This document shows, piece after piece, positions 14,048-43,690 of a stretch of 64,000 nt of DNA. Each line of letters opens with the position of its first letter. Position 1 is the first letter of the stretch. The translations under genes and the position numbers were made by a program. Location of the stretch: contig JAJEKV010000102.1 of assembly GCA_021234155.1 (NCBI GenBank), positions 1,606,456 through 1,670,455 on the forward strand, given 5' to 3'. The DNA is from Isoetes taiwanensis (Eukaryota > Streptophyta > Lycopodiopsida > Isoetales > Isoetaceae). The notes beneath the pieces are model-generated. The model saw nothing but the letters and a program-made list of their open reading frames with translations, did not search any database and was not told the DNA's origin.

Positions 14048-17000
14048 CTACAATGTGGAGGGTTCTTTCCCAGATCCCGCTTTGACCTTGACTTCTTTTT
14101 CCAGGGGATGCCGATCTGATAGATATAGCTTGTACCTCATTTGCGGGACCAAAGCCCGAGGTCGATGATTCTGCATTCCCCGAACACCTTCATGCGCCGC
14201 CGCCTCGGATGAGCCACAACAACCAGGCTTTACACGGATGAAAGGCCGACTCAAGCCGGGACCACCTACTAGGGTACACCCCAAAAGGACCTCCCCGATC
14301 AAGCGAGTGAGGTATGAAAGAGGCGCTGAACCCACTGCCATGCCGGCTGGATATCTGAACAGAGAAACATGCAGTGTTCCAAGGTCTCCACACAGCCACC
14401 ACACATGGGACATAAGTCGCTGATCCGAGGGTTGATCCTGTGAACCCATGTGTTCACCCTCGAGAACGGTGCACACCGCCACAAAGAATACCGAATCTTG
14501 GGGGCGAGATTGGGTTCCACACCCACCTCCGTGATAACGCCCCCACTCATCCCTGTGCACCAAGACTCCATCCATCCGAGGGAGGCAACTCATCTTGAAC
14601 CACCGTAAGCTCATAAACAGACCTCACAAACTTTGAGGGATCCACTTTCGGGTGGCACTTCCACACACGCCCCGATGCCCGCGGGAGGGTGCGGTGGGTA
14701 GAGCATTAGCCACCCGTACTGTGATAGTACGATCCCATTCCCGGGGTCAAATCTATAACGAAACAGCTGCCGGGTGCTAGTTGCCCATCCATATACCAAT
14801 CCGGCCACCGCAAAAACCCCACACCGCGCCCATCTCTAGGCTTGGACTCGGGATCAACGGAGGCCGCCAGAACCACAGGTGCGTGTGGTCCAAGGGGGAT
14901 CCACCACGGCGACGCCTCCAACTGAACGCAGCTGATGGCATCAAGTGCAAACAATGGACGGACCTGCCCCGTGCCTGTAGAGCCCCTTCAAAACGGCGAG
15001 GCATGAGCATACGGCCTGATATCCACAAACAACGCCCAAGGGAGCCGCGCGGGCACAGACGGCTTGTGGAAAACTATGGAATGAGACAACGACTGGTGAA
15101 GCAAGACCATGCCCGGGGAGTCGGTTGCGTTCTCAAGAATAGCAAAACAAACTTAGGCGGGGAGGACCTTGCCATGCGGACGGATCAAAAAGCCGAGTCC
15201 ACCCGCGGCCTTAGGGCCCGGACGCACTTCCACCAGGGCCACCTTCACTACACGCCCCTCCTCATTGCCTCCCCACACAAAGGATTCACGAACCATAGCG
15301 AGAGATTTCCGGCACCTTACTTTCCGGGTGCGGGGATGATAGAGCCATATAAATATGAGTCGAGCAAAGGGCCGGACTTAAGCCCTTTGTGACCACGCCT
15401 GACCATGGGCCGGCTTCCCCCTTTCCACCAATTGAGATGCCGGCGAAATCAACGAGAATGTCTTCCCACACCGTTGAAATTTTGAGATATCAATGCCAAG
15501 CGGAATGCCCAAAAGCCTGGAGTGCGGGTGCCCGCGGGCTGCGTTCACCATGGGAATTGGGACACCACCGCCGGCATGGGCTCAGCTGCCGGCCACAGTC
15601 ACCGAGCACTTCGACCAATTCATAAGGCAGCCAGAAGCAAGGGAAAATGTGTCCAGCAGCTCCTTCGTATTCAAATAGTTTAGCCTCATGCACTGCAGAA
15701 GAGGAATGAATCAGTCCCGTCTTGACTCCCAATCTGCTGCGATCCATCTGCCATCCTCAGTCCCTCCACCACACCAGCCTCCACTGCAAAAGTCAACAAC
15801 TGCGAGAGGGCCTCCGCTACAATGGTGAAGAGGAAGGGCGCCAGAGGGCATCCCTGACGAACTCCACGCCCCACCCCAAAGATCGGAGAGGACTCACCGT
15901 GACACAGGAGGGTCGCTCTGGCGGACACTAGGAGCTTCATAACCACTGCCGTAAAGGCCTCCCCACATCCAAAGGCCAACATCATCTTTTTCAAGAACGT
16001 CCACCGCACACTATCATAGGCCTTTGCGAAATCCAGCTTCAAATACACAATCTGCTGACCAGTTTTACGTGCCCAGTGAATGCCCTCAAATGCCGCTGCT
16101 ACATTGCTGAGAATCTGCCTGCCCGGAATGAAGCCAGACTGCATGGTACTAATCGTTTCTTTCAAGACAACTTGCAGTCTAAGCGAGAGTGCCTTCGCAA
16201 TAATTTTGTAAACTAGCAAATGAAAGGGTGATGGGGCAAATCCGGAAATGACAGTGGCTCCTTGACCTTGGGTATCAGCGAAATGCAGCCCGTATTGAGC
16301 CTATAGTCCAACGCTGATGCCCGGCAAATCTTGATAGGTCTGCTCCACCGAGTCCCCCACCCAATCCCAATATTCTTGGAAGAACTCGATCGGAATGCCA
16401 TCCAGACCCGGACACTTGTGAGGGGCCAAGTCACGGCACGCCTCCTCAAGCTCCTGTTTTGTGAAGGGGCTGCGGCAAGAATCGCCTCCTTTCTGCGGAC
16501 ACCTTACATGCCACTTCTTACCGAGAACAATCTCCTCCATCACGCCTCTGTGTAGGGTATGTCTTCTCTGGAAGAACCGAGAAAAGTGATGAAAAGTTGC
16601 ACGCTGAATGTCCACTGGCCCGAATGCAAGATACGACCATCACCCAATGACAAGTGGCGACATAGAAGCGCATACTTCTTCTCGGCCAGCTACCCTGAAC
16701 ATTCGAGAATTAGTGTCCCCCTCCCTCAACCGTGATCCTCGCTTTCACCCTCGCTGCCGCTGATTCATTTGCAGCAATGCAAATAGAAAAATCTCATTCT
16801 CCAAGACCCCCATCGATGGCGAGACCTCAGCCTCTTCCAACTCAAGGATACAATGCTTCTAACACCTCCCTCTCTTGGCGAGCTCAAGGACGCCCCAGGA
16901 CTTAGCAAATGCCTTTAACTCGAGCTAAGGCCCGCACCATTCCCCGCCATCCCAAAACTATCCCGAAAGGTGCTAAAACCAAATCTGTTGGCATCCCCAA

Positions 17001-24006: not shown

Positions 24007-25614
24007 TGTGACGTTCCAGGGGAATATACGCTATAAATACGTATATTCCTGGACCCGTCACCATACAAGTCTACCTAAGTAGCCTTGTATGCATTGGAAA
24101 GTGGCAAGGGGTGCACATCTAAGTTAATTGTTTAACTTAGATAACCTTAGGATAAGACCCATTTCCACATGGCCTTATCCTATTGGGCAACCGCCACACG
24201 ACCTCATCCTAGTGGTGCCACGTGGCATCCCATGTGGACGCTCACCTATATTAGCTCTAACCCTAACCCTAGACCCTTTTTCCCTGACCTAGCCTCTAAA
24301 CCCTCATCTACGCGCCCGAAACTCCGTTTCGAGCACCGTTCGTCGTAGCCTAGCCTGGAGCAGCAGCCCCTGGAAGGTGTGTATGATCGTAGAGCGAGCC
24401 ACGTCAAGGAGCATGGAGACGCCGGGGATGGGAGGAAGCGCTTCTGGAGGAGGTAGGTTGAGTAGAGTCCATGTTAGTTCATCTGGGAGTTAGCACTCCA
24501 GATGGGTTAGTATTTCGTAGCTAGAATAGAGCCAACCTAGATCCTTTGTTGAACATCTTGAACCCTAACTGATAGTTAGATATGTATGATTAGGTTAAGA
24601 TGTTCATATGATATTGTTCATGATGATTATGTGATGTTGGTTGATCATGTTTGTTCCTCTTGTGTTGGGAAGGGGGGTAGAGACCTAGGGCCATATGTAG
24701 TATGCTCCTAGTATAGATCCCTTAGTTCCTATTATATGCGGCATGTGCATAGGAACCCACCAGGCTATGGAGGCTATGATGTGACTCGGCACTACATAAC
24801 GGGGCTAGAGGCAATATGGAGGGAGGATCCCTGTCGAGCGGGGGCTACGGGGGATCCCATAGTGGGCTAGGCTTATGGCCGGTCACTTCGTGTGGGCGGG
24901 CATGGGTCCGACACCTCCCAGGGCGAAGGTGTTGCCCCGCCTCTCAAGAGTTGCAAGTGTCGGCTTGGCTCTTGTTTTGGGGGGTTCAGTCGGGTACGAA
25001 TCGTGTGTCGTCACGATTCTCTAGCCGCCGTGGAGCCTCTAGACCCCGAAGGGGAGATGCAACCCTTCCTACCTCAACGGACCAGGAGATGCAACTGGAG
25101 TAGTCCCGGATGGGTGATGCCATGGGATTGCGTGTGATCCGGAAGGTTAGAGTCATGCCGAGCCTGATCTAGCCCATCCGCAAAGTATGCCTGAGGGGCG
25201 GATGGAGTGGTCAACCCTAGCCATTGTCTTATGCCAGCCCGCCATTGTTATGACTTCGGTCCGCTCTATCTTGAGGCCTATCCATTCGGTCGACTTCCTA
25301 ATGTGCCGCATCCACGGGTAGGAGCTCTCACGTTTTATGGTATGTGGCTATGTTCTTTGCACCTTTGGATATGTGATGGACTACCCTTCGAGGTAATATT
25401 TGTATTGTTGATGCTAGTTCTGACATGTTTATCGCTTCCGCTGTTATAGGAGCCCATAGGGGAAGGGCGCGCAAGACACCTTCGTGTCCCCTCCCCGCGC
25501 TAAGGTCACCTTAGGTGCGGGGTAGACGAAGGGCCTGTGCGGTTGTTGAGCCGGATGGGGGATTTCCTGCCGAGTGTACGGCCGGGTGCCGTATGTTTAG
25601 CAGGGAGCGTCACA
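24007..25614 (+). repeat. Left LTR of the outer element
   Basis: A 1608-bp LTR beginning TGTGACGTTCC and ending GGGAGCGTCACA. A TATA-like ACCTATATTAGC lies at about 24246. The first 700 bp match 49160-49875 with only scattered changes plus one short duplication (extra AATCAATGAACCCT in the right copy), and the last 520 bp match 55175-55655. AACCCTAACCCTA here is LTR sequence, not telomere. Confidence 0.92.
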
Positions 25615-25615
25615 A

Positions 25616-25628
25616 TGGTATCAGAGCC
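25616..25628 (+). other. Primer-binding site, initiator tRNA-Met type
   Basis: TGGTATCAGAGCC follows the LTR end by one base and is the standard complement to the 3' end of plant initiator tRNA-Met, the usual primer for plant LTR retrotransposons. Confidence 0.93.
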
Positions 25629-26195: not shown

Positions 26196-27307
26196 ATGGC
26201 ACGCACTAAACAAACCTACAGGAAGCCTGGCCCTAGGCGAACACCCTCCATGGCGGCAGCAGCAGCGGGCGGTCATGGCAAGCAGATACCACCCCACCTG
26301 AGGCCCAACCTAGACGAGGGGGGGGCTGGCCTTCATCCAACGACTCCTTCCACGACGCCGAAGAGAGTGCACCTAGCCCCAGCGGCAGCTCGTCATCGGC
26401 GGGCACCCAGAGAACCGGCGAGTCCCGCCACTTTGGGCCCTCGACGGACACCGAGGTCGAGGAGCAGGTTGAAGAACAGGTGGGCGGGCAGCAACAGCAG
26501 CACCAAACTCAGGAGGCAGGCCCTTCAGCACCTAAGAAGAAGGGCAAGGAAAAAGTTGCGGAGTGGCCAGAAGAGAAGGCTGCTAGGAAGAAGAGGGAGC
26601 GCGAGCGGGAGCTCAGGCGACAGGAGAGAAGGACAAAGGGAAGAAACGACCGGCCTCGCGGGACCATCGTTATTGAAGAGCCTCCTGAAGAGGAGGAGGC
26701 CCGGGAAGGGGGAGACGGCGAGGAGGAGGAGGAGCAGCAGGGGCCCGACGCTAGACCACCTTACCCTAAGTGGCCGGAGCCACCAAAGGTGGTCAAGAAG
26801 CAGAAGGTGAGAGAACGAGAATTCACGCTCCGTCAGGATCGTGAATTCATGCGTAAGATGAAGGTATACCAGGAGTACCTCCGTCGCTGGACGAGGTACA
26901 ATGACTGGTATTGCCGTCAAGAGGTGCAGCGGGCCGTGGAGGGCGGCAGGCCGAAGAAAAATCAGCCGAAGCCACCCCCACCTAGACCGGAAAAACCCAA
27001 AAGGGTTCACCACGGGCCGAACAGTGTGTACGCCCGGGTGTTTAGGGAGATCAAGCACTTCCAGATGTGCACAAATCTCCTCATAAGGAAGGCGCCCTTC
27101 GAGCGTCTCCTTCGGGAAGTCATGCAGCAGTTCCGGACCGATTATAGGGTTACCCCTCTAATGACCCGGGCTCTGCAAGAGGCTGCTGAAGCAGAGCTGG
27201 TGCAGCTCTTTGAGGAAGGGAATCTCTGTGCCATCCATGCTAAGAGAGTCACCCTTATGCCAAAGGACATTCACTTAGCACGGAGGATTCGCAGGGAGAG
27301 GCCCTAG
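26196..27307 (+). CDS. Retrotransposon-encoded histone H3-like protein
   Basis: The frame from 26196 begins [10 protein letters not shown], the H3 tail with K4 and K9 kept (A7 to Y, S10 to P). At the G8 run 26318-26325 the reading frame changes by one base; the continuing frame runs to the stop at 27307. That part has an acidic/basic region, a PPYPKWP motif (about 26756-26776), a Tyr/Arg-rich helical stretch, a Pro-rich linker, and from about 27017 a complete H3 histone fold: REIKHFQ..TNLLIR (alpha-N/alpha-1), [16 protein letters not shown] (alpha-2), [20 protein letters not shown] (loop 2/alpha-3). The last 27 residues differ from canonical H3 at about 4 positions. KHFQ..TNLLI recalls CENH3, but loop 1 has canonical H3 length. 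It lies between PBS and pol, so it is element cargo. Full length would be about 370 residues, against 135 for H3. Confidence 0.85.
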
Positions 27308-27525: not shown

Positions 27526-27600
27526 GGCCAACCGGGTGAGACCGCGCCAAACGCGTCTGCGTTCGCGACGCGGAGGCCATCCGCGCGGACTCACCCGGGT
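27526..27600. repeat. 75-bp structured repeat, copy 1 (outer element)
   Basis: Runs from GGCCAACCGGGTGAG to GACTCACCCGGGT. The outer arms CCGGGTGAG and CTCACCCGG pair, with inner CGCG/GCGC-rich complementary blocks. An identical copy lies 202 bp downstream. The host region is AT-rich, so the GC-rich hairpins stand out. Confidence 0.85.
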
Positions 27601-27727: not shown

Positions 27728-27802
27728 GGCCAACCGGGTGAGACCGCGCCAAACGCGTCTGCGTTCGCGACGCGGAGGCCATCCGCGCGGACTCACCCGG
27801 GT
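27728..27802. repeat. 75-bp structured repeat, copy 2 (outer element)
   Basis: Identical over 75 bp to 27526-27600 as far as I can read. The sequences between and around the copies are not similar, so the unit itself is conserved or recently copied. Confidence 0.85.
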
Positions 27803-28081: not shown

Positions 28082-29602
28082 ATGGCGCCCAACAACTTTG
28101 AAAGATGGTACAATGCTGCAAACCATATCCATCAGCTCCCTGCTGACCAAGCCTTCTCTGTGTTTGACCACTTGTTTGATCTTCATGCAACTCTGTCTAG
28201 AACACCATACTACACAGATATCATGTGCCAATACGACCAACAGGTCCTACCTTGGGAAGTTAGACTACCCCCTAGGGGAGGGAATTGGGTTTCCCTTGAG
28301 ACACTCACCCAAGCCTTAGGTCGAGAGATGGGAGGATCCAAAGGCAAGAAACAGCTATGGGATAGGACTAGGACCATGCCAGATTACATGACCTGCAGAC
28401 ATAATAGGCATAGGTACCTTTCATCTCAGACAGCCCTTGCCCTCTTCATGCACTATAAGTCAATCAACAAAGTAGGGGAACCTTCCGTTCAGCCCTTAGA
28501 TTTAGCTCCACTTAATACCCGTAGGGCCCAGGAGCAGATTCTCAATATAGAATCCTCCGCATATGAACACCATGGCACGACATCGGGGGCACCAATTCTG
28601 CAGATAGACGAAGACTACGAGCAACTAGGGGAGCAAAACCCAGAGTGGGAGAGCAGGGAGGCAACAAGAATGCAGAGGTACATGTCAAGGCACGACGACG
28701 ACATCAGAAGAGCCACCGAGCCACCGGTCGGCATCACAGCTCTGTCGCCGATAGTCATCGACGGAGAGGAGTACATTCTAGCAAATGACATCCTCAACTT
28801 GTCATCCGCCAGAACGGGGACTTGAATCGGCGAGCTTCTAGGCATGATAGCACATGGGAAAAGCACGGACCTCATCGACTATTCATACCGGAGATTCCAA
28901 GGGGAGCTGGCGGAGAGACATTCTTATCTTTGGGGAGACAATGTCGACATAGCGGCCTATCGGCCAGATATAAAGGGAAATCTATCGCCAGAACCCTGTC
29001 ATTTGAGGAGGAGTTCCAGCAGATACAGAGCACACTGTACAAACCAGGGAGGGGCCCAAGCTCCAGCCGGACAGTTCGAGCCAGGAGCATGAGGGAAGGG
29101 TCCAGTAGCATCAACTTGGACAATGCAACCAGCATGTGGAGAGACCATGAAGACCTTATGGCAGTAGATGCCTACGGCGGAGCGGCTCAAAGGAAGGGCA
29201 CGGGATCGCGAGGCACGGGTAAGGGCACGGCACTACGTTACTATCTTCCAGCCCTCAGCCAAGGGCAAATGGTAGTCTTCCACAAGGAGTTCAGTCCAAG
29301 GGGGGAAGAATCAGTGGCACTTCTCATAGCACTCTCTGCCGGCAGCATTCAAGATATACACCCATGAAGATCACGTCATCCTTTTCAAGAGGTCCGTAGC
29401 GCTCCATTGCCTCGACTTCGCTAGGGGCCACCTCAGGGACGCATCACTTTCAGTAGTAGCGGCAACTGCACCAGAACTCCCGGAACCGGAAATGGCGCGA
29501 GCACTCGAGGGAGGATCGACAAGGAACATCCTGCGCAACCTCGGCAAAGGCCTCCGATTCAGAGATGTGAAGAATTTCTTTAGGCTTTCAGGAGGCCATT
29601 GA
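28082..29602 (+). pseudogene. ORF-X, second accessory gene of the outer element (unknown function)
   Basis: Starts MAPNNFERWYNAANHIHQLP and runs about 247 codons to a TGA at 28823-28825. The same frame then continues to about 28985, shifts by one frame (segment with KSIARTLSFEEEFQQIQ), and shifts back before ending after RNILRNLGKGLRFRDVKNFF at 29602. The total is about 505 codons. The nested element has a homologue in the same place, with matching landmarks: F(E/K)RWY near the start, an (E)EEF..IQ block, and a C-terminal (S/T)(R/T)NILRNL....VK(N/K)F. I recognise no known domain, signal peptide or membrane segment. It is not gag, since the nested element has both. Confidence 0.7.
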
Positions 29603-29797
29603 TCAGTTACAAGATTTCCTTTTAAGCTTTAAATTGTATTGACTAATCTCTTTGATATTATCATGTAATGTACTTCTATATATTAATGACTTATTATCAT
29701 CTTGACTTGTAAGTGAAATTTTCACATGATTACTTTTGTATCTAACAATAAATTAATTGTAAACGGATATAATTGATATGTAAAACAAATAACAAGG
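29603..29797 (+). other. AT-rich spacer ending at the gag deletion junction
   Basis: AT-rich DNA resembling the nested element's spacer between ORF-X and gag (36794-36917; both contain AAACAAATAACA- or AAACAAGTAAAACAA-like text). At about 29790-29800 it passes directly into protease-region sequence, so gag, the zinc knuckle and the start of protease are missing. Confidence 0.6.
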
Positions 29798-30888
29798 TAT
29801 TGAAGTCTAAGCCAAGGCCAGTTGCTATGGCAAACGGCTCCATTCGGCACACTAAGGGGAGGAGGATCACGTTCGACATAGACCTTAGTGGAAGTAAGTG
29901 GCCGATGGGAGCAGAAGTCATGGAAATTGGAAGGTATGACCTTATAGTGGGCATTTGAAGCCAGCAAAAGCCATGATTGATTGTGATCGCAACGAAGTCG
30001 CCATGACGGCACCGGACGGCACCAAATTCATAGTAAAAGGTAAGAAGGCAGCTCCTTCTATGCAGTGTATTTCCTTGAAGCACCTAAGGAAAAGTATAGA
30101 AAGAAATAAGGTGGATTACATTTTGAGGTTAGAGGCAATTGAGCCCAATAAGCAAGATGGAAGTGATAAAAGGGGAGTCGAGTTTGCCCAAGCCAGTAGC
30201 AAGGCTCATCTCAGAATTTAAGGATGTATTCCCGGATGAAATCCGCAATTACCACCTTACAAGGGTGTGGAGTGTGAGATCACATTAGCTCCATGCTAAG
30301 CCTACCAAGAAGGCACCTTACGGGATGAGCACCCGAATTGACAGAACTCAAGAAGCAACTCCGGGAATTGCTTGAGCTTGGGTTTATTAGAGCAAGTGTG
30401 TCTCCTTTGAGACACCTATACTCTTTGTGAAGAAGAAAGATGGGAGCTTAAGAATGTGCATAGACTATCGCCCGACTCAACAAGCGCACGATTAAGAACA
30501 AGTATGCATTGCCAAGGGCGATGATTTGATGGATCAGCTCCAAGGAGCAAGGGTATTCTCAAAAATTGACTTAAGGTCGTGGTACCATCGGATAAGAATT
30601 AAGGAAGAGGATATCCATAAGACCGCCTTTAGAACGCGGTATGGTCACTTTGAGTTCACAGTAATGCCCTTTGGATTGTCGAACGCTCCAGCAACTTTTA
30701 TGCGCCTCATGAACGACGTCTTCAGGGATTTTCTAGATGAGTTTGTCATTGTCTTCTTCGACGACATTCTAGTCTATAGCAAGTCCATTGAAGATCATGA
30801 TCAGCATTTGAGGAAAGTCTTGGAGAAGCTGAGACGCCATCGCTTGTATGGCAAGCTCTCCAAATGCCACTTTGCTACCGAAAGAGTG
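29798..30888 (+). pseudogene. Outer element protease remnant and reverse transcriptase, N-terminal part
   Basis: The protease-side segment includes ANGSIRHTKGRRITFDIDLS and MEIGRYDLIVGI. RT follows with [17 protein letters not shown] (30423-30470), [44 protein letters not shown] and the catalytic [10 protein letters not shown] box (about 30750-30780). Frameshifts occur around 30230-30525. The gene stops abruptly at KCHFATERV, where the nested element inserted; EYLGHV resumes at 46113. Confidence 0.88.
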
Positions 30889-32473
30889 TGTGACGTTCCA
30901 ACATAATATACGCCCCAATACGTATATTATACTGCCACGTCACACGTACATGTCACAAGTGACATGTACTTGAGAGTAGGACAACGTTGCACCTAGGAGC
31001 TAAAGGTTGCACCTAGGGGGCAACCTTGGATGTTGGGTATGTAATTAAACATACACAACAAAAGGTTCCTTGTTCATCCATTTCCAAATGGCTCAAAGCC
31101 ATTTGCCCATGTGGATGCCCTAACCTAGATAGGGTCTATATAAGGGCTAAAACCCTAGACCCTAGCTCTCCTTTCACTTTGCCAATTAGGGTTTTCTAGA
31201 GCTTCCTTTCCTCTTTCGCATTTAGGGCTTTCCTGGGCCAATTCGGCCAAGGTAAGGCTCGAAATCGCATTGCCAGGCTCCGAAAAGTCGGATTTGCACA
31301 ACAGGTTCTTGAGTAGCGGTGCCTTCGCAAGATCAGAGCATGGGCGCCTTCGAGGATCGGGGAGCAAGCCAAGGAGCGGTATCTAGTTGTTCTCACAGCA
31401 AACCCGCCTTTAGGCATGGCAATATGCCGGTTTAGTATGTTAGATCATCTCTGGAAGCCTTGTAGATCCCTAGATCTGAGACTCTAACGAATGAACCTAA
31501 CATTGGATGTTAAGTAGATAGATTGATATGATTCTCTATCTCTGTTCTGTGATATTGCATGTATTTCACTCTGTGATCTCCCTTGTTGTGGGAAGGGGGT
31601 AGAGACCTAAAGGTCGTGTAGAAGATGCTCCTAGCATAGCACCTTAGTTCCCACATAATTGCGCCCGTGGCACGAGCCCACCTGGCTGTGGGTGAAGGGG
31701 CAAGGCCGGTTGATAAGGAGGAACTTGTCTCATCGCGGACTGACCCCTCTGGTAGTAAAGCCTATCGGGGGTCTTTGCTGGCTAGGCTTAATGGCTTGTC
31801 ACTGCGTGTGGGCAAGGCATGAGCTCGACACTCGTGGGGTGGTGGATATGACCTTCCAGTGAGTTCAAGTCGAATAAGGGCAGTGGCCCTCTAGCCGCCT
31901 GCGATGAGCATGGATACCTCTGGAGGAGAGGCAGCTCTCTTCCTGCCTCATCGGGGTTGGGGAGATGCAACCCAGCCAATGGTAGCCCCTCAAGATTCAC
32001 CCTACAGACTACGGCCAAGTCCCAACACTTTTTCAGCCTACTGCAAAGTGTGTGCGGGAGGGGCGGATGGAGTGGACTACCCTAAGCCATGTTCTATGCC
32101 AGCCAAATCCATTGCCATGAATTCTGTCTGCAATGAACTCTGGAGGCCTAGCCGTCAGTCATCCCCCTTGAGTCCGAGCCCTGGGTAGGATCTTTCCTTT
32201 GTATTATTGTTATGAAGGTATTGCTAACTCTGTGATGTTGCTATTGTTATGGTGATTGTGTTGTATATTATTAGTTGTGCTCACGTTTGTTAGTTACGCT
32301 TCCAGAATAGGTCGATCCGATGGAAGGCGGATGAATGACACATCCACTCTTCCCTTGCCGGCTCTGCCCCCCATGGGAGTGGAGTCGGTGGATAGCCCCC
32401 GCGGCAGTTTGCCGGGGAATGCTCCTCCTTCAATAATGATCACGGGCATCGATAAGGAGTAGGGGCGTCCACA
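30889..32473 (+). repeat. Left LTR of the nested element
   Basis: 1585 bp, starting TGTGACGTTCCAACATAATA, with TATA-like GGTCTATATAAGG at about 31132 and ending GGGGCGTCCACA. It matches 44514-46110 along its length, with many small indels concentrated in G/C runs. Its first and last 10-20 bp resemble the outer element's LTR. Confidence 0.9.
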
Positions 32474-32474
32474 G

Positions 32475-32486
32475 TGGTATCGAGCA
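32475..32486 (+). other. Primer-binding site, nested element
   Basis: TGGTATCGAGCA one base after the LTR resembles the initiator tRNA-Met PBS (TGGTATCAGAGCC) with one base missing. Confidence 0.75.
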
Positions 32487-32681
32487 TGATCTTGGCATCC
32501 AAGATCGAGCAGCCCATTTTTCCCTTAGGACTAACAGTAGATTCGAGTCTTGGGGTATAGCCACCCAAGCAAGAGCTTCGAACAATTGGGAAAATTTCCC
32601 AATTTTTGGGTAGATTTTAGCTCCATGATAGGTTGCTGATGAAGTGTAGCATCTTTCCCAACCTAAATTGTCAAAAAACAG

Positions 32682-32971
32682 TCGACCCCTCACAGAGTGC
32701 GCCCAGCACCATTCGGTTCATAAACCGATTCCACCCCTGGCGCCTTGTGGTGAGTGGTTGACCTCCGCTTGACATAGTTAGGTGTCCCAATTAATTAAGA
32801 TAATGGTGTAGTTTGGATTATTCCCTTAGTTCTAGATAGGATTGTATGTTATAACACTAAGAAACTCCCTGTAAATTGTAAAATAGCCTCGAAAGCGATC
32901 GACCCCTCCACGAGTGCCCGGACCCTTTAGGTTGGTAATCCAATCCGGCCCAGCGTCTTGTGTGAGTGGTG
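32682..32971. repeat. Hairpin repeats R1 and R2 upstream of the nested H3-like gene
   Basis: R1 (32682-32760) and R2 (32899-32971) are diverged copies of a unit of about 78 bp. The plan is CCCCTC(A)CGAGTGC..CC, an inner inverted repeat around ATTCGGTT..AACCGAT, then GGCGCC..TTGTG(G)TGAGTGGT. The outer arms can pair (CTCAC with GTGAG, GCGCC with GGCGC). Three more copies lie beyond the H3-like gene. Confidence 0.75.
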
Positions 32972-33079
32972 GGTGTTTTGAAGTATGGTGAACCCAAATG
33001 AATGCCTCGTACCTTCGCTAATGCCCTAGTTTGTTTTCCCCATATATGAATTGCGGGTCCCAACCCTAAATTCCACCTC

Positions 33080-33090
33080 CCTATAAATAG
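33080..33090 (+). promoter_or_regulatory. TATA box upstream of the nested H3-like gene
   Basis: CCTATAAATAG, a near-ideal plant TATA box, lies about 110 bp before the ATG at 33192, with a C-rich leader (TTTTACCCCCACCTTTCC). It suggests that this gene is transcribed from its own promoter rather than only from the LTR. Confidence 0.65.
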
Positions 33091-33191
33091 AAAATTAGGG
33101 TTTCCATTTTACCCCCACCTTTCCTCGAGAACAGCTTCGCCTAAGAAGACGATCTTCAGCGCCAAAGCTTCGAAACCCGACAAACAAAAGC

Positions 33192-34366
33192 ATGGCACCT
33201 GACGAAACAGAGACGCCTCGCGAAGGTTATGCCACCCGGTTATGTGAGCCCAGAGCGAGCCGTCCGTGGCAGGCCGACGGGAGGCAAGTGCACATCGATG
33301 AAGAGGCGGCACCGGTTGAACCACCTAACCCTAACCCTGAAGAGCAGGAACAGGTATCGGAGCACCTTGACTGGGAGGCGGACGCGGCGGCGGAGCTGAG
33401 GAGGGAGCTGCTGAGGGAGATCTTCGAGATAATGAAGAACCGAGCGGAACCAAAGAAGAAGAAGAGGGAAAGAGAAGAAGGCGAAATGAGAAATCTAAGG
33501 CGAGCGCCTAAGGAAAAGGAAGAACTAAGAAAGAGGAGGGAGGAGAAGGAACGAAGAGGGAAGAAAGGAGGAAGCGCAAAAGGAGCCGGAGAAGGTGAGA
33601 GGCGAGAAAGGTAAGGACCGGAAGTGCCGGGCGAGAAGCCGAAGAAGAAGAAGACACCGGCCGCGGGAGTGACCATACAGGAGCCGGATCCTGAGAAGCC
33701 CCCATCCTCGTCTGACGCCGAACTTGAGGAGGGAGCGGGAGGACACGAACCAGGAGAGACTTCGGGCCCTTCAAACCCAATACCGGAGGATGAAGACCCT
33801 GTGGCTAATGCACCGCCCTATCCTAAATGGCCGTCGCCGGAGCACCCCAGCGACAGCACCAAGAAACCAAGGCCGCAGAGGGAGTCCTATGCGCTGAAGC
33901 TGACTTGAAGTACCGGAAGGAGCTAAAGGAGTATACCATGTATATGAAAATGCACGAAGAATACTCCAAATACTACGAAAGAACACGTAGTGAAGACCAT
34001 TGAGGAGGTCGGCCAACGAAAGAAGAACACGTTGAAGCCCACCGAACAGCCAACCCTCCTCCGAAGCCGGCGAAGAGGCCGGCGGACTCAAAATTCGCGA
34101 GGGTGGCCCAAGAAATTAAACACTTCCAGCAGAGCTATGGCTTCCTCATTCCCAGATCCCCCTTTGCACGTCTAACGAGGGAGATTTTGCAGGAGTTCGA
34201 CCCATCCAAACGGGTCACGGACGACATGTTTGCTCGCATCTACTTGAGGAGGCGTCGGAGCAAAGACATCGCATACATTACTTGAAGACTCACGTCGCGT
34301 GTGCTCAACACGCTAAAGAGAGTGACTTGTATGCCCAAAGATATTAGACTAGCTTCGGTTTATTAA
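33192..34366 (+). pseudogene. Diverged histone H3-like gene of the nested element
   Basis: The start MAPDETETPREGY lacks the ARTKQT tail. A Lys/Arg/Glu-rich region follows, an in-frame TAA stands at 33612-33614, then VTIQEPDPEKPP and NAPPYPKWPS (PYPKWP shared with the outer protein), a Tyr-rich helical stretch, and a histone fold from about 34090: ARVAQEIKHFQ, FLIPRSPFARLTREILQEF (alpha-1), an LLEEASEQ-like alpha-2 in another frame, CAQHAK and RVTCMPKDIRLAS (alpha-3) ending at 34364-34366. At least three frame changes are needed. Block order equals that of the outer gene, so both derive from one ancestral retrotransposon gene. FLIPRSPF recalls the LLIP..SF of plant CENH3. Confidence 0.75.
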
Positions 34367-34512
34367 GAAGGAGGGCCCCCGAACTTGTAAATGACCTTTT
34401 CTTTGGTATAAGTCTATAATTTTGATAAATAAATAAGTCCAATCGAGTTTAAATAGGGTGTATTGCCAATTCTACATTTAGAAATAGCAAAGTTCGAACA
34501 AACCAGGCAATT

Positions 34513-34999
34513 TGATCCCACCCCTCACGAGTGCGCTAACCCATTCGGTTTGCAAACCGATCCCACCCTGGCGCACTGTGTGAGTGGTTGAGCATGGTTT
34601 GGTGCCAAATCTTGCCTAAATGCAGAAAGTAGGTATACTATTCGACCTAGCTCATCCCGTTAGTAGGAATTGACCCCTAATCTGTCCAAATTGGCCTTGC
34701 CGAGTCAAATGGAGCTCCACCCCTCCGCGAGTGCGCCCGGACCCATTTGGTTTGGAATCCCATCCCACCACGGGCGCCTTTGTGTGAGTGGTGAACCCCA
34801 AACTCCACCACAACTTGCCCAAATAAAAGCGAGTAAAGGCTCAATCCTATCTATCTCGATGAGATATCCGGGATTATGTCTTTAGTTCTCTAGTTTAGCA
34901 TCATTAGTGACCTAAGCGGCGTCCCACCCCTCACGAGTGCGCCCCAACCAGTTCGGTTTGCAAACCCGATCCCACCACGGCGCCTTGTGGTGAGTGGTC
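34513..34999. repeat. Hairpin repeats R3-R5 downstream of the nested H3-like gene
   Basis: R3 (34513-34590), R4 (34716-34793) and R5 (34921-34999) share the unit CCACCCCTCACGAGTGCGC, an inner palindrome such as TTCGGTTTGCAAACCGA in R3, CCCACC(A), GGCGC and TGTG(G)TGAGTGGT. With R1/R2 they bracket the H3-like gene. Spacers of 120-130 bp are unrelated. Confidence 0.8.
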
Positions 35000-35158
35000 T
35001 CGTCGAATTCATCCAAGTTGTCCTTAGGCGAACCAAAATCATTGCTTAGGGACCCTTAGGAGCATTTCCAAGCTCGGTTAGCCTATAAATCATACCTCGA
35101 GACCCCGTGAAAAGTCGAGAATTGTAAACCTAAAATTTTCCCAAAATTAGGGTTTTGC

Positions 35159-35169
35159 CTATAAAGGGG
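35159..35169 (+). promoter_or_regulatory. TATA box upstream of nested ORF-X
   Basis: CTATAAAGGGG lies 120 bp before the ATG at 35279, with a C/T-rich leader. It matches the arrangement before outer ORF-X. Confidence 0.6.
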
Positions 35170-35278
35170 AACCCAAGTGTCATTTGCACATTCCAACCTC
35201 GCTCTCTGCTCCAAGCCGATTTCCCTGATCCTTAGGGCACTTCTGCATCTATCTGTCATCCCCAGCTCCTCAGTGCTC

Positions 35279-36793
35279 ATGGCCACTTCTTCATTCAAGC
35301 GATGGTACAGCGCCACAGCTCATGTGGCTGAAGTTTCGAATCTGTCTTTTCCGATGTCTTCCGAAGGGAACTTGACATTGAGGCCACCATCAACGCCACT
35401 CCCTTCTACCAGAACATCATGTCTGAGTTCCATGCCAAGATAGGACCCTTTTTGGTAGAACTCCCACCTTGTGTAGGGTATTTTGCACCTAACACTGCCC
35501 TCAAGTCAGCCCTGCAAGATATCCCAAATGTAGATAAGTACTTAGAGAATAAAAAGCAGTCCGCCTTCCCAACTACATGTCCATCTCGTCAATAGGGAGG
35601 AGGTACTTCTCCTATCTGACGAAATACATATAGCCATCTTTCTATCTCTTCGGGTCAAACACGATAGGGGAACCCTCGCAGCAGCCTTTAGAAGTTGAAC
35701 CCATAGCCATGGCGCTTGTGAGGAGGAGGAACGGATGCGACTTCGAAAATACGAGCAAGAAGAAGAGGAGGAGGATGAATACTGAATCGGACCGGAAGAC
35801 CTGATCTAGAACGAGAGAGGCAAAGCGGAAAAGAGATCCAAAACTTCTCAAGAGGGATCATGAAAGCAACAAGAAGAGCCCCACCACTCGGGCAGGGCAT
35901 TACAAGCTTGACGCCAGTGTTCATAGCAGGCGAGGCATATCTAACCCTTCACGACATCAAGAATCTTCCACGCGATTCCGCGTGCAGGCCTTAGGGTGGA
36001 TGAGATTTTACACCTTCTACGACAGCAGGCAGATCTCGACGACTTCCTCGATCGAGAAGCTCAGGACTTCCCTATCAGCATAAGAGAAGCCAGGACCTTC
36101 ACCGGCGAGACATCATCAGATATAGAAGCTTACGCAGGCATCAGACAGATGATGGCCGAAAGGGAATTGCCCTCGGAGGAGGAGTTCATGGCAATTCAGG
36201 AACAAATGGGCATCAAAGGCAAGTCCACATCAGCATTATTACCGAGCTCGCCAACACCCATCCCGGCAAAGATGGAGGCGATCAACCTAAGGAGGCTGGT
36301 GCACCAAGACTTCGAGAGCTAGAGGAGATACCAAGGATGACTTCAAGGGAAGGCACAGGCAACTTCCTCGTCCGCCGAAGAAACAGGGGCATGATAAGGC
36401 GCCGATACTACCCGCCGCTGTCTTTGGATCGAAAGAATAGCGGTTATTCACCGCCAATTTAGCCCAAGAGGTGAAGAAGGGGTCTTTATGCTTATCGCCC
36501 TCTCAGGGTTCGGACACCATGCACGATTACCTCCAAACATCGACCATGTTGTCCTGATCAAGAGAGCGATTGCATTGACCATCTTCGACTTTGCAATCCC
36601 TTATAGGCGGCAGGGCAGATTGGCAGTGACAGCTGCGTATACATCAGATAGGAGAATTCAAGACATGGAGGCAGTACTCCAAGGAGGAACGTCAACAAAT
36701 ATTCTCAGGAACTTAACAGGGTCATTAGGTACGGCCCAAGTGAAGAAATTTTTGGAGGACCACCCTGATTACCTCAAGAAATTTCAAGAGTAA
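35279..36793 (+). pseudogene. ORF-X homologue of the nested element (frameshifted)
   Basis: Begins MATSSFKRWYSATAHVAEVS, aligning to FERWYNAANH of the outer gene. The frame breaks several times. The 35996-36322 frame has SIREARTFTGETSSDIEAYA and LPSEEEFMAIQEQM, matching the outer RHSYLWGDNVDIAAYR and FEEEFQQIQ. The 36488-36793 frame has VLIKRAIAL..FDFA and TSTNILRNLTGSLGTAQVKK, matching the outer C-terminus. Total length is about 505 codons, as in the outer copy. Function is unknown. Confidence 0.7.
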
Positions 36794-36917
36794 AAGTCTA
36801 TTAATTTGCATGTAAAAGCTTATTATATATGAATATAATATATATCTCTTTTGTATATAATTGCTCCCTCAAATTGTATAAACAAGTAAAACAACGTAAC
36901 ACACAAAACAAGAACTA

Positions 36918-37937
36918 ATGATCAGAATGTACTCTAATGTGCATGCAGCTAGAGTACCTAGAAACCTTGATGAACACAGGCAGCGAGAACAACAACGTAC
37001 CCCGCCAAGGCGCTTCCAGCCGAGGAATTTGCGCCCAGAATTCGAAGCGGTAACACCGGAGGAGGAGCTATCCCAAATCAGATCTGACATCCACGACATA
37101 AGGGCATTGCTAGCAGGGGCAGCAGCAATAGGAGGACAGGACCAGAATGTGCCCTTGCCGGAAACGCCAGCTGGCCGAACAGTGCAACGAAGGAAGAGAA
37201 GCAGAGGGAGAAGATCTCCCAGCTTCGGGATCCTCAAGCTCCAGCTCGGATACGCATCTGCATCTCGGAAGAGCGGGAAGAAGAGGCACGAGGTCGCCGG
37301 CGGGGATCCAAACCCGCGATGCGGGACGGATCACGCATCGATTATCGAGAAGAAAGTTGACTCCGCCCTTAGTAATGTGTGGAAAGCCAGAAAGTTAGAG
37401 CAGTTTTCAGGGGAAAACAGATCCGGAATGGAAGCAGAGGCATGGCTGGATGAGATGAGTGAGTATGGCAACGCCTATGGCATGAAAGATAAAGACAAAG
37501 GCAGGGTAGCAACAGCAAACCTCAAAGGGTGCAAATGTAATTTGGTGGAAGGGTATGCCAAAGCACATGGGGAAAGGGGATGCGGTTGCAAGTTCAGAAA
37601 GTTCGCCAAGGCATTCAAACATCATTATGTACCAAGAGAACATAAGTGCAACATGATGCAGCAGTTCTATAGGCTGCAACAGGGCAACAAATCAGTCCAG
37701 AAATACACGGAGGAATTCATGAGACTAAGGCTTTATGTGCCAAAGTTGAGTGAAAAGCATGCGGTGGAAGGCTATATTGAAGGCTTGAACGATGAGATCC
37801 GCAAGCTTGTAAGGGCAATAAACCCAAAGTCTGTGTCAGAGGCAGAAGCAAAGGCCATAAGTTTGCAAGGAACAGGTCCACAAGAGCAGGCATCAAGGCA
37901 GCAATATTTCCAGGATAAGGGGAAGAGCACTGTTGCC
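36918..37937 (+). CDS. gag: Nested element gag, N-terminal and capsid part
   Basis: An uninterrupted frame from ATG at 36918. A basic Arg-rich N-terminus leads into the retrotrans_gag domain: WKARKLEQFSGE, EAWLDEMSEYGNAYG, KFAKAFKHHYVPREHKCNMM and QKYTEEFMRLRLYVPKLSE, then YIEGLNDEIRKLV. A CKCNLVEGYAKAHGERGCGC segment replaces the usual W-rich linker and may reflect local sequence change. The frame is cut at 37937 by the insert at 37938-39810. Gag forms the virus-like particle in this family. Confidence 0.85.
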
Positions 37938-39810
37938 TTTCACAGAATCCTTGCAAAAACTGTGATGCATAAATCTCTAAATTGTGGGATTTCCTAAAAG
38001 ATACTTGCCAAATTCTGTGTTTAGGGGGCAGAGAGCCAAAGGTGTGGTGAGGGGATGTGAAAAGATGAGAAAAGAGGTGCAAATGTGAGGAAATAAGGTG
38101 ATATATGAATGCAGGTGTATGACTGGGATGTTTTCTGTAACAAAGTGATGAAAATGATTGAAGAAAAAAACTTTGGGATGCAGTCAAACTTCCTTTGAAT
38201 GCAAATGAAATATTTGAGCAAATTACGAGAATAGCTATTTGTTTAGCTAAGTCTAGATAATATCGAGATAACTTGAATTGATTTCAACTCATTTGTTGAT
38301 CAAGATTGGTGGGAAATTCGTTGGCAAAGTTAAGCGAGTGGACGGCACATAAAAAATGGGAAAACCCTAATTTTTTGAAAAAAAAACTTCAGAAATCGAT
38401 TGAAGAAAGGGAAACACCATGGATTGCTCAAGAAAACTTTTCTCATTATCTTAGGAACATAATACATATGTGGGGTAATCCATTTGATCACTCAAATAGA
38501 ATTTGTATCAGAACTTCAAAAATCTTGGCTTTCAAGAACAAGGGCGGGTTTCTAATCAAAAATCTCCTCTCCTCGTGTGGAATACGGCTCGGATCATCTT
38601 TATAGACCTGTGTCAGGGTAGTTAGAGCTCCAATTTGTCTGCATATGGCCACGAACTCTTCTTTCCCAAAAATAGGCAATATTCTGTTCTTGGCATGATC
38701 TCCATTAATTCGGCATCCTCTTCATGATTCGATTGGTTCCAGAGGTCGATTATGATCAGGCGAACTGCTCTGCATCACTCAAAGTGCGCGGGAAGCCGAG
38801 AATCATAGAACCCTAATGGATCTTGGCCGGATTTTCTTCAGTGGATATATCCCACAGGCCTAAATCAAAAAGTCAGCTCAGGTATATATAGCTCGATCCA
38901 CGCAAACTCTTAAATTGACGTGTCTTGCCCACGTGGGATTCGGTACCTCCACCGCCCCACACGCCCGGGTGAGCCACGTGGAGGGGGGTGATTGGCTGAA
39001 AAGGAATCTAGGTCGGGGGGGTGGTAGAATAGGACAATTTTTTTACATTTTCTCAAAGGGCACGATTCCCAAGAATTGGAATTCAAGGGTCTATATAAGG
39101 TCTTTTTTGGAAATTTTTTGTGCCAGGTGGCATATTTTCATTGGGGCAACATGGTGAGGTGGTCAAATTTTGGAAAATGGCACTTTGATTTTTTGGCTAA
39201 AAAAGGTGAATCAATGGTGACTGGACATGATGAAATGATGACTTGGCATAATGAAGGATGATGTGGCAAGGTCAAACATGGCTTTTGCCTAAGTGGATTT
39301 TCGAAATTTCAAATGCCCCTTGATATTTTTGATGAGGTGGCATGATTTTGACCCAAGTGGCAAAGATATAACCAAAGTTGGATGACAAAGCATTTTTGTG
39401 AGCAAGGTGGCCATCCTAGGTGGCATTTTGACTCTTGATGACGTGGCAAGGGTATTTTTTGGAAAGTGTGCCTTTTGACTTTCTATTTTGACTTTCACTT
39501 GACTTTTTGACATCTTTGGCACTTTTGGATGATGACTAGGATGCCACTTGGCAAAGGTATAGATTTTTTGGCATTTTGGGATTTTTAGGCATCTTTAGAA
39601 GCATATTTGGCTAGCGATAGGGGAAATTCAAGGAGAAATGGGAGATAGGCTCAAAAAATTTGGGAAAAATCAAGGATGGCTAATTTTGGCTAAAGGATTT
39701 GGTAGGGGTACTCACCTGGCCTAGATTCTCTTTCAGCCTGATACCTTTCCTTAATAGCTCCTCCAATACTTAGAATTTTCTTCATATCTTCATTTCTTCT
39801 TCATGTTGCC
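37938..39810. mobile_element. 1.87-kb unclassified insert in nested gag with 7-bp TSD
   Basis: TGTTGCC occurs at 37931-37937 and again at 39804-39810, bracketing DNA that interrupts gag between capsid and zinc knuckle. The insert starts TTTCACAGAATCC (with an inverted CTGTGA 20 bp in) and ends TTTCTTCTTCA. It has no long terminal inverted repeats, no poly(A) tail and no recognisable protein. Its right half repeats GGTGGCA- and GACTTT-type words (39120-39560). The class is uncertain. Confidence 0.6.
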
Positions 39811-40306
39811 ACTTCAAGGGGCAACAAGCACAGGGGGCTATAGCCCAAGGGCGGCAAGCCCAGTAGCTAGCAAGACGCAGTACAATTCAAATTATGGGAA
39901 GCAAGGCAACACAAGTAGTGGCAAGCAGGAAAAGAAACAGGTAAGCTTCAAGGAGCAAGGAGCCAAGTCTAACTACTCCCAAGCGGTGAGGCAATTTCTG
40001 CAGTCCATTCCCAAGGAGAAGAAGCAGGAATGTATAGAGAAGCAGTTGTGTTTCAGATGCTTCCAGCCAGGGCATAGGACCAACAATTGCCCCCTGATTA
40101 TGAATGCGGCATTGGCAGAGCTGGGATGGGAGACACCATCGGACGCAGACGACGACGAAGCACGGGATTACATCCATGGTGAGTGTCACATCTTTGCAGC
40201 TATTGATACAGGGAATGCAGAAAGTCAGTATAAGGTAATCTCAACGACCGGAAAAGCCCAAGAGAAATCCTTTATAGTATTGATAGACTCACGGAAGCGA
40301 TCATAA
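39811..40306 (+). CDS. gag: Nested element gag C-terminus with CCHC zinc knuckle, entering protease
   Basis: A Ser/Gly/Gln-rich linker is followed by the nucleocapsid knuckle CFRCFQPGHRTNNC (CX2CX4HX4C, about 40049-40090), then ECHIFAAIDTGNAE and FIVLIDS, the start of the aspartic protease (D-S/T-G region; the Gly is lost to a frame change). The join across the upstream insert is off by one base, so the gene would not be restored by precise excision alone. Confidence 0.8.
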
Positions 40307-41480
40307 TTTTGCATCCCCAGGATGGTAAGCATGTTGAAGTTAAAGCCGTTAAAATCCAAGCCCAGGCCCGGCTGGTGGTGTTAGCCAATGGAGCAATTAG
40401 GCATACAAAGAGGGGAAGAGAATAAACTTCAATGTAGACTTGCGGTGTTAATGTTGCAATCGGGAGCGGAAGTCATGAATATAGGCAAGTATGATCTCAT
40501 TATTGGAATGGAATATCTTGGACCAGCAGGGAGCAATCATCGATTGTGGGAAACGTAAGGTGACCTTAACAACGCCAGAGGGCAAAGTCATCGAAATCAC
40601 AGGTAAAAAGTAACCCCAATCATGCAATGCATGAGTAGTGAAAAATTGCTTAAGTGCATAAGAAAGCGGCCAGTGGCCTATCTCCTTAAGCTTGAGCTCC
40701 AAGATCGGGGAGCGGGAGAGAAATAAAGAGATCAAAGAATCTAGCAAGCTTCCCCGGGCCAATAGCAAAGTTGATCGAGGAATTTCCGCGACTTGTTCCC
40801 CTGATGAGATTAAGCGGCTTCCCCTATAGAGAGGAGTCGAGTGTGAAATAGCATGAACACGGGACGAAGCCTACAAGCAAGGCACCTTATAGGATGTCAA
40901 CCGAGGAGTTGACAGAGTTAAAAAGCGATTTGCAAGAATTGCTAGACCTAGGGTTCATAAGACCTAGTGTCTCCCGTTCGAGCCCCTATTCTCTTTGTGA
41001 AGAAGAAGGATGGGAGCCTTAGGATGTGCATTGATTACCGCCAGTTAAATAAGCACACCATCAAAAATAAGTATGCCTTGCCTAGGTCGAGATGACTTAA
41101 TGGATCGATTCAGGGGAGCAAAGATCTTCTCCAAAATAGATCTCGGATCGATATCACCAGATTAGGATCAAGGAGGAAGACATTCATAAGGCGGCGTTCA
41201 GGGACAAGATATGGGCACTATGAGTTCCACGGTTATGCCCTTTGGATTGTCTAATGCACCAGCAACATTCATGAGATTAATGAACGGCGTCTTCCGGCGA
41301 ATTTCTAAATTCCTTCATCATAGTCTTCTTCGACGATATCTTGGTTTACTGATGAAGTCGTGGAGGAGCACGCCCAACACTTGAGGAAGGTACTTGAAAA
41401 GTTAAGAAGGCATCAACTCTTTGGTTATCGAAGTGCCGCCGCCTGGAAAGAGTGGAGTACTTGGGGCACGTGATCACAGC
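40280..41480 (+). pseudogene. pol: Nested element protease and reverse transcriptase (degenerate)
   Basis: Protease-side ANGAIRHTK and NIGKYDLIIGM match the outer copy. RT blocks appear in changing frames: [31 protein letters not shown] (about 41000-41050), [29 protein letters not shown] (41230-41285), VFFDDILVY (41325-41350) and RVEYLGHVITAEG (41450-41485). The last supplies the uninterrupted version of the site where this element entered its relative. Indels make it non-functional as read. Confidence 0.85.
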
Positions 41481-41730
41481 AGAAGGCATTTCCACGCACC
41501 CTGAAGATAGAAGCCGTGTCGGCTGGCGGCACCAAAGAATACGATGAAGTCGAGGGAGCTTCCTAGGGCTAGCATGCTATTATAGAAGATTTGTGAAGAA
41601 TTTTGCCAAGGTAGCGGCGCCATTAACGATCTCACAAAAGGTGGGAAGATAAAAGATTGGGCAACCCATTGGCAAAACAAGGCCCGAAAGCATTTGAGAC
41701 ATCGGAAGAAGCTTTGACGACGGCGCCCGA

Positions 41731-42351
41731 TTGGTCTTGCCAGATCCGACCAAAGATAAGCTTGTAGCAACAGATGCTAGCGGGATAGCAACAAAGGTAG
41801 CATTCCTCATGCAGGAGGAAAGAGTAGTGGCCTACGATTCCAAGAAGTTGAACGACGCCGAGCAGCACTACCCAACGCATGATCAGGAGCTCCTGGCTAT
41901 AGTAAGGGCTTTAAGAATTTGGAGGCATTATTTATTAGGAAGGAAATTCCAGTTAGACACAGATCACCAAAGCCTCCAATACATATTTACGCAGCCGCTC
42001 CTTAATTTGAGGCAAAGGAGATGGATGGAATTCTTGGAAGAATATGACTTTGAGATAAGTTATAAGCCAGGGAAGCTCAATGTGGTTGCGGATGCCCTTT
42101 CCAGGAAGCCATTGGCAACCAGAATTCATTGTAACGCCATATCAACACTTGTAAGTGAGTTTGGCAAGAAGATTGAGGAAACATTGCCGACGGACCTCGA
42201 CTTCAAGGAAGTTTGGGCGAGCCTTTCTAAAGAGGCCAGGACCGACAAGGAAAGGGAGATGTTCAGGCACTACAAGGAAGGGAACTTGCTATATTATAAA
42301 AACAAATTGTGGGTACCAAAATCTTACGCAAAGTTAGAAAGCTTATTTTGA
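41731..42351 (+). CDS. pol: Nested element RNase H domain
   Basis: An open segment with TDASGIATKVAFLMQEE (first Asp), NDAEQHYPTHDQELLAIVRA (Glu) and LDTDHQSLQYIF (Asp), the DEDD-type RNase H residues of Ty3/gypsy, followed by [20 protein letters not shown] and DALSRKP before integrase. It overlaps the integrase frame by a shift near 42310-42350. Confidence 0.88.
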   Translation: MVLPDPTKDKLVATDASGIATKVAFLMQEERVVAYDSKKLNDAEQHYPTHDQELLAIVRALRIWRHYLLGRKFQLDTDHQSLQYIFTQPLLNLRQRRWMEFLEEYDFEISYKPGKLNVVADALSRKPLATRIHCNAISTLVSEFGKKIEETLPTDLDFKEVWASLSKEARTDKEREMFRHYKEGNLLYYKNKLWVPKSYAKLESLF

Positions 42352-43308: not shown

Positions 43309-43690
43309 CCAATCCTACAAGTTGGACTTGCCAGCACATCTTAAGATACATAAGGTTTTCCACGTAAGTTTGCTAAAGAGGCACACCCCAAACCCCGAGG
43401 AAATATTGGAGACAAATGAGTTTTTAGAAATGACGGACGAGCATATTGAAATCGTTCCGGAAGTCCTTCTTAATAGATCTTATAAGAAGACAAGAAGGTC
43501 AAAATTCCTCCAATACCTTGTGAAGTGGAAGCACTTACCAGTGGAAGACGCTACGTGGGTACTTGAGTCAGATCTTAAGAAACAGTACCCCGAGTTTATG
43601 GAGCAATGCAAGGGTCGGCTCGTCACCGAAGTAGTCGACATCAGCAACCAAGAAATCGGCTCAGGCATGTCGATTTGGGTTTGGATTTAA
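43259..43690 (+). CDS. pol: Nested element integrase C-terminus with chromodomain
   Basis: After YKLDLPAHLKIHKVFHVSLL (the conserved chromovirus integrase tail) comes RRSKFLQYLVKWKHLPVEDA and TWVLESDLKKQYPEF, a chromodomain with the KWK and W-E aromatic positions. In chromoviruses this module guides integration to histone-marked chromatin. It is relevant that the same element encodes an H3-like protein. Confidence 0.85.
   Translation: MLQDGLDPSGIEKRVGNQSYKLDLPAHLKIHKVFHVSLLKRHTPNPEEILETNEFLEMTDEHIEIVPEVLLNRSYKKTRRSKFLQYLVKWKHLPVEDATWVLESDLKKQYPEFMEQCKGRLVTEVVDISNQEIGSGMSIWVWI

Follow-up and report, generated by a model that had tools for sequence, protein, structure and literature searches.

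Why would a retrotransposon carry a gene for a core histone? In plants, histone-based silencing has LTR retrotransposons among its main targets, and the window analysed here (the whole stretch of 64,000 nucleotides of Isoetes taiwanensis DNA) holds one with a histone H3-like gene of its own, at positions 26196-27307 of the forward strand. The locus raises the questions of what this protein is, whether the elements have kept it, and what they could gain from it.

An H3 gene in nested chromoviruses

The first-pass annotation of the window had described an H3 tail at the start of this gene and a full H3 fold at its end; both are present, in two different reading frames. The gene, which we call ORF-A, begins at 26196 with the tail motif (26196-26225; ARTKQTYRK after the methionine in this copy) in a frame open from 26196 to 26810, and the fold lies in another frame, open from 26237 to 27307 (356 aa); comparison with intact relatives places the frameshift in a run of G near 26.32 kb. 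The H3 region, from helix αN to its end (26987-27304, with the stop at 27307), matches Pfam Histone (E 1.8e-28 for the long frame), histone H3 is the best match in PDB (4.9e-31), and the alignment of residues 268-355 with H3 is gapless from αN to the end, with a loop 1 of H3 length. The extension of about 200 charged and proline-rich residues described in the annotation is found between tail and fold. Chance resemblance to H3 was rejected on the Pfam and PDB matches and on the tail, for which a match of at least eight of nine residues at one fixed place has P = 6.5e-9 given the composition of the long-frame protein. An AlphaFold2 model of residues 176-356 (pLDDT 53.1) has a long helix and then helices in the H3 order, and its 28 Foldseek matches at E <= 0.001 (best 9.1e-5) are all nucleosome or chromatin chains, with rmsd values of 13-18 that indicate a poor global fit; because the model is weak, the evidence for the fold comes mainly from sequence. 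A protein search with ORF-A gave 1,075 matches, and each of the 120 listed contains the H3 motif NLCAIHAK twice, so these are tandem H3 gene models. Residues 166-300 had no match at E <= 1 among 94 candidates, and a scan of viral contigs found no relative.

The element that carries the gene, E1, is a Ty3/gypsy chromovirus on the forward strand (24007-55655), with ORF-A between primer-binding site (PBS) and pol. Its 5' LTR (24007-25614, TGTGACG...CGTCACA) is followed by the PBS TGGTATCAGAGCC (25616-25628), which we take to be of initiator-methionine type; ORF-A starts 580 bases past the beginning of the PBS at 25616, with seven ATGs in between. Downstream are a second additional gene, ORF-B (28082-29602, broken in this copy, with homologues in the elements E2 and E3 described below), a reverse transcriptase (30496-30906), the integrase core with its SH3-like domain and chromodomain (47227-48258), and the 3' LTR (49160-55655), and the target-site duplication TTGGT flanks both ends. 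The LTRs differ at 10 of 1,115 positions, plus 19 gap columns, over two well-aligned parts, and at 18 of 1,192 when aligned across an insert of about 5.3 kb that splits the 3' LTR (49876-55169); we take the insertion of E1 to be fairly recent. An E2-like gag is absent from the window copy of E1 between ORF-B and pol (29602-29940) even though its LTRs are nearly identical, and a search with the E2 gag gave only a chance match inside ORF-A (E 0.12); this copy possibly moved in trans or lost its gag later.

A second, related element, E2 (30889-46110, forward strand), is nested within the reverse transcriptase of E1. Between its 5' LTR (30889-32473) and 3' LTR (44514-46110) lie a decayed H3-like homologue of ORF-A without an H3 tail (33192-34366; Pfam Histone 3.5e-6, PDB H3 1.2e-5, tblastn from E1 1.7e-18), a broken ORF-B homologue (35270-36793, the start being approximate), gag (36900-37997; Pfam Retrotrans_gag and Ty3_capsid) and a stretch with zinc knuckle, reverse transcriptase (by homology to that of E1), RNase H, integrase and chromodomain (39758-43690). 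Both integrases end in a chromodomain (PF00385, 7.9e-9 in E1 and 1.1e-10 in E2). Because E2 sits in the E1 reverse transcriptase, a large part of the pol that follows ORF-A is that of E2: of the setting of LTRs, PBS and pol first proposed for the gene, the LTRs, the TTGGT duplication, the PBS, the reverse transcriptase, the integrase and the chromodomain belong to E1, and much of the downstream pol does not. The target-site duplication of E2 is ambiguous. Its LTRs differ at 129 of 1,569 positions in a patchy manner, despite its nesting in an element whose own LTRs differ far less, which suggests mosaic structure or conversion rather than age.

Two identical GC-rich hairpins of 75 nt lie near ORF-A of E1 (27526-27600 and 27728-27802; z -5.2) and five diverged ones around ORF-A of E2 (32685-32758, 32899-32971, 34516-34588, 34717-34792 and 34924-34998; z -3.0 to -5.4), the five repeats showing no compensatory changes among them. 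Elsewhere in the window, the reverse strand has an N6_N4_Mtase DNA methylase fragment (57987-58613; 3.5e-14, open frame of 208-209 aa) and a reverse transcriptase fragment that looks LINE-like by eye (15686-16297; RVT_1 2.5e-20). A glycosyltransferase gene (6838-8388) groups weakly (90/90) with the lycophyte Diphasiastrum in a tree with 27 chosen relatives.

Copies of the gene across the genome

Whether the gene belongs to this one copy or to a family was addressed by searches of the whole genome (1,658,258,908 bases in 1,110 contigs), in which all match counts are lower bounds. ORF-A of E1 gave at least 114 scored matches including the window (74-100% identity; 22,691 first-look candidates), 82 of them without a stop in the matched stretch by our own count from the table, and the H3 region of E2 gave at least 150 (4,808 candidates). 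A search with canonical H3 likewise gave at least 150, made up of 15 full-length loci at 96-98% identity, which we take to be the host H3 genes, and 135 matches at 71-86%, many of them within open frames of 300-567 residues. The E1-type, E2-type and H3-like sets should not overlap, as judged by identity range rather than by coordinates. A single-copy insertion is ruled out by these copies, and a host H3 gene or a processed copy of one, expected at about 136 residues and near-identity, was rejected on the lengths (364-378 aa in E1, 390-397 aa in E2) and on the diverged folds. Fetching copies by their similarity to the window elements, we read 30 of the 114 E1-type loci, 30 E2-type loci and two of the 135 H3-like matches; the last two, L066 and L067, represent a third type, E3. 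Fold identity to host H3 is 48-69% in E1, 46-52% in E2 and 86-87% in E3.

The setting of the gene recurs. Among the 30 E1-type loci, an LTR end 80-100% identical to that of the window lies upstream in 29, an exact TGGTATCAGAG in 27, with one locus (L008) lacking both, and ORF-A is uninterrupted in 20. One E1-type locus, L065, has on one strand an LTR end, PBS, ORF-A, ORF-B, gag, reverse transcriptase, RNase H, integrase and chromodomain, its 3' LTR lying beyond the stretch, and the E2-type locus L063 has the same order from ORF-A through the chromodomain, followed by the beginning of a 3' LTR, with the 5' LTR beyond the stretch; gag and the order of reverse transcriptase, RNase H and integrase are recognised by homology in these two, as they are present in E2. 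The stretches read for L061 and L062 extend mostly in the other direction and contain ORF-A and part of ORF-B. In these copies, several genes farther downstream are broken. Wherever the surroundings were read, the order is thus ORF-A(H3), ORF-B, gag, reverse transcriptase, RNase H, integrase, chromodomain: in a clade of Ty3/gypsy chromoviruses, an H3 gene precedes ORF-B and gag. The E3 ORFs (463 and 468 residues) end in H3 (Pfam 3.3e-41 and 1.9e-43) behind a different N-terminal part, and L066 has a PBS and an LTR akin to the E1 and E2 ones upstream and an ORF-B homologue downstream. In both E3 ORFs (L066:58-1446 and L067:27-1430), the part fused to the near-canonical H3 is about 330 residues long and without a significant Pfam match. 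ORF-B is a second conserved extra protein in E1, E2 and E3 (28082-29602; 35270-36793; L069:148-1548), which in L063 and L065 follows ORF-A and precedes gag and which is homologous between E1 and E3 (4e-7 and 1.6e-8); family searches gave no significant match for it (best in Pfam 0.27, best in PDB 0.1, none in NCBIfam), and a lone-sequence structure model was useless (pLDDT 36.7).

E1 and E2 share the beginning of the protein. In E1-type loci, ORF-A starts with MARTKQT in 28 of 30 (in three, including the window, out of frame with the fold), and at least seven of the ten tail residues match in 29: 17 tails read MARTKQTARK, one MARTKQIARK, ten share one other ten-residue spelling and one has another. 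A tyrosine at place 7 in an otherwise exact tail, as in the window, is found in 10 of 30. The E2-type tail is present in 21 of 30 loci and exact in 18, including all nine whose frame stays open across the fold for at least 390 aa, and both E3 ORFs read (L066 and L067) lack an H3 tail at their start. Over aligned columns, six pairs of intact proteins, one from E1 and one from E2, have 36-40% identity, with MARTKQTARK common to both; their beginnings, illustrated by MARTKQTARKVMPPGYVSAQ in L049 (E2) and MARTKQTARKYNERPTLSMA in L010 (E1), align only patchily past residue 10 until PPY(P/L)KWP and the fold, and residues 14-36 of H3 are mostly missing or altered. Genome-wide, MARTKQTARK is spelled at 1,051 sites (a reversed-pattern control gave 0), about 15 of which should be host H3 genes, five being among the 100 places listed; any codon at place 4 with the other nine residues matching occurs at 1,060, so Lys4 is present in 1,051 of these. 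Four tail sites outside the fetched families (L071-L074) all have H3-fold remains downstream (tblastn with host H3, 1e-31 to 3e-5) and all have broken frames, so the 1,051 are to be counted as sites, not as working genes.

Origin and selection

The captured gene had been proposed to be of H3 or CENH3 type. CENH3 resembles the ORF-A protein in having a fold of H3 type and an N-terminal part that diverges, and differs from H3 in its longer loop 1 and non-H3 tail, whereas E1 and E2 have a gapless loop 1 of H3 length and the canonical H3 start; on these two features of CENH3/CENP-A, CENH3 identity was rejected, and the ORF-A protein is, as judged by its loop 1 and tail, H3-type and not CENH3-like. 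In a tree of the fold (31 rows), E2 (100/100) and E3 (96/93) are well supported and E1 weakly (62/68); E1 and E2 together stand apart from a group of host H3, other H3 and E3 (98/95), in which E3 lies beside a plant H3 (82/71). This tree would fit either a single capture, after which E1 and E2 changed faster, or a separate capture by E3; one capture is favoured by the shared order of ORF-A and ORF-B and by the homology of ORF-B between E1 and E3.

Capture, extension and retention of an H3, as the first reading supposed, are supported: the ORF is present in E1, in E2 and in the two E3 copies, it precedes ORF-B wherever the surroundings were read, and dN/dS is low in E1 and E2. Nei-Gojobori pair averages, which are not mutually independent, give 0.134 overall for 20 open E1 copies (tail 0.074, residues 11-45 0.247, 46-190 0.132, 191-260 0.091, αN to the end 0.108, αN plus α1 0.061) and 0.153 for nine open E2 copies (middle 0.178, fold 0.109). 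Because both sets were picked for open frames (20 of 30 E1 and 9 of 30 E2) and for the tail pattern (loosely in E1, exactly in E2), these values are lowered, above all the 0.074 of the E1 tail, and the E2 set has zero tail change by construction. The nine exact tails in nine open E2 frames and the synonymous differences between families are the better evidence: across the 17 x 18 pairs of exact E1 and E2 tails, about six of the nine changeable codons differ synonymously. A tail renewed by gene conversion with host H3 was rejected on a comparison with the one host gene read (L068): on average, synonymous differences from it stand at 8.4 of 9 codons in the exact E1 tails and at 6.4 of 9 in those of E2.

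The window copies of ORF-A in E1 and E2 are 26% identical, and between them, with synonymous sites saturated and the E2 copy decayed, pN/pS is 0.36 in the tail-like region plus αN, 0.45 in α1-L1 and 0.62 in α2-α3, against 0.13-0.23 in the integrase; ORF-A therefore evolves faster than the integrase (reverse transcriptase pieces, 0.31-0.43). The host residue is nevertheless the majority in E1, E2 and E3 alike at 36 of 84 fold positions, including R69, R72, R83, C110, H113, R116, K122 and D123, which we take to act at the DNA or in the H3-H3' bundle. Given the many copies, the kept H3 start and fold, the low dN/dS and the constant gene order, this is an H3 gene that was captured, has diversified with its elements and is under purifying selection.

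What an element-borne H3 may do

The benefit of the gene may lie mainly in acting against host silencing through a predicted role as H3 variant or decoy, a reading that we favour at a little short of even confidence. ORF-A would be translated as the first ORF, and its product would enter the nucleus, where the fold would pair with host H4 and leave free the end of an H3 tail showing R2, K4 and K9 without most of the mark-bearing residues 14-36. Such a protein could form a nucleosome variant on element DNA or, as a decoy, draw off the readers and writers of H3K4 and H3K9, and either could weaken the heterochromatin marking of new copies by the host; the charged middle may bring in partners or determine where the protein is deposited. 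The retention of the K4/K9 tail with residues 14-36 missing or altered argues for contact with readers or writers of both lysines, and the preservation of residues at four-helix and DNA contacts speaks for an interaction with nucleosomes. Assembly into nucleosomes is not assured, since the chaperone-choice motif (87-90) is changed, to LMTR in E1 and by majority to DMLL in E2, and E2 has other residues in place of R49 and R63. The Tyr7 tails of E1 count against the anti-silencing reading, as do the E3 ORFs without a tail start, despite their near-canonical fold. Bracovirus H4, a parasite-borne histone with an extended tail that is described as incorporated into host nucleosomes, offers a precedent (PMC9145170).

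Other readings draw on the same features. A functionless passenger, in the form of one host H3 that happened to be copied into a single element, or else an assembly artefact, would fit the frameshifted E1 and decayed E2 of the window and the four broken tail sites, but we give it next to no probability: it is already refuted by the number of copies in two well-sampled lineages, by their long open frames, by dN/dS of about 0.13-0.15 and by tail codons synonymously far from the host gene read. That the protein silences the elements or limits their copy number by recruiting marks is distinctly improbable, as a gene for self-silencing would require a special selective setting, even though chromatin proteins can act in either direction and K9 is preserved in the exact tails. 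The element H3 might instead mark or tether chromatin so that the chromodomain integrase or the pre-integration complex finds chosen sites, which we consider unlikely: E1 and E2 both have the chromodomain and E2 did insert into its relative, but both chromodomains presumably lack the first aromatic residue of the cage, as far as can be told by eye. Chromodomains are described as able to direct integration (PMC12786077). A role in packaging, in which the protein would act like a basic nucleocapsid and condense or protect the cDNA or RNA of the element, whether in the particle or in the nucleus, has somewhat less to recommend it and is quite unlikely; the middle region is highly charged (48 K/R and 43 D/E in 220 residues of L010), and the question of histones on virion DNA has been raised for Marseillevirus (PMC9145170), but the net charge is about neutral, gag and a zinc knuckle are also present, and packaging alone would not need an exact ARTKQTARK.

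These elements can be set beside several known systems. The plant Ty3/gypsy chromoviruses of REXdb (Neumann et al. 2019, PMC6317226) are described as likewise having LTRs, a PBS of tRNA type, a gag that includes a zinc knuckle, the order of reverse transcriptase, RNase H and integrase, and a chromodomain, to which the elements here add two ORFs before gag, the first an H3; the main text of that paper contains the word histone once, about chromodomain binding. Additional ORFs conserved across copies are known in plant elements, the commonest, however, lying between pol and the 3' LTR, and the main text of the survey of them does not contain the word. In Phalaenopsis, Ty3/gypsy elements are described whose additional ORF, a captured 2-ODD m6A demethylase domain, was kept through rounds of replication, in that case an RNA demethylase and not a nucleosomal histone (PMC9289625). 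Histones are carried by parasites with DNA genomes (bracovirus H4, xenomavirus H3, Marseillevirus doublets), several with extended tails, and the accessible text of the review describing them contains no retroelement histone (PMC9145170). Additional ORFs in plant elements, the orchid demethylase and DNA-virus histones are thus already known, as far as these sources describe them. Among the open-access papers listed in literature searches, none dealt with a retroelement-encoded core histone by its title or the beginning of its abstract, and the main texts of the Isoetes taiwanensis (PMC8566536) and Isoetes sinensis genome papers do not contain the word histone.

A family of hundreds of copies with its own H3 suggests direct interference with host chromatin, and elements that encode a core histone and keep its H3K4 and H3K9 residues amid divergence offer a route to ask if mobile elements manipulate the histone code. 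The roughly 1,000 tail-bearing sites are a natural set for learning which H3 residues a parasite needs, and in plant annotations element H3 genes could pass for host H3 variants. Retroelements would join the parasites that took host histones. It is tentatively possible that this clade has gone further and evolved a nucleosome subunit of its own, an H3 variant with a K4/K9 tail that is deposited on or near element DNA and rewrites or evades the histone code. If so, the diversification of ORF-A along with pol would record an arms race over histones, with a parasite on one side and plant heterochromatin on the other.
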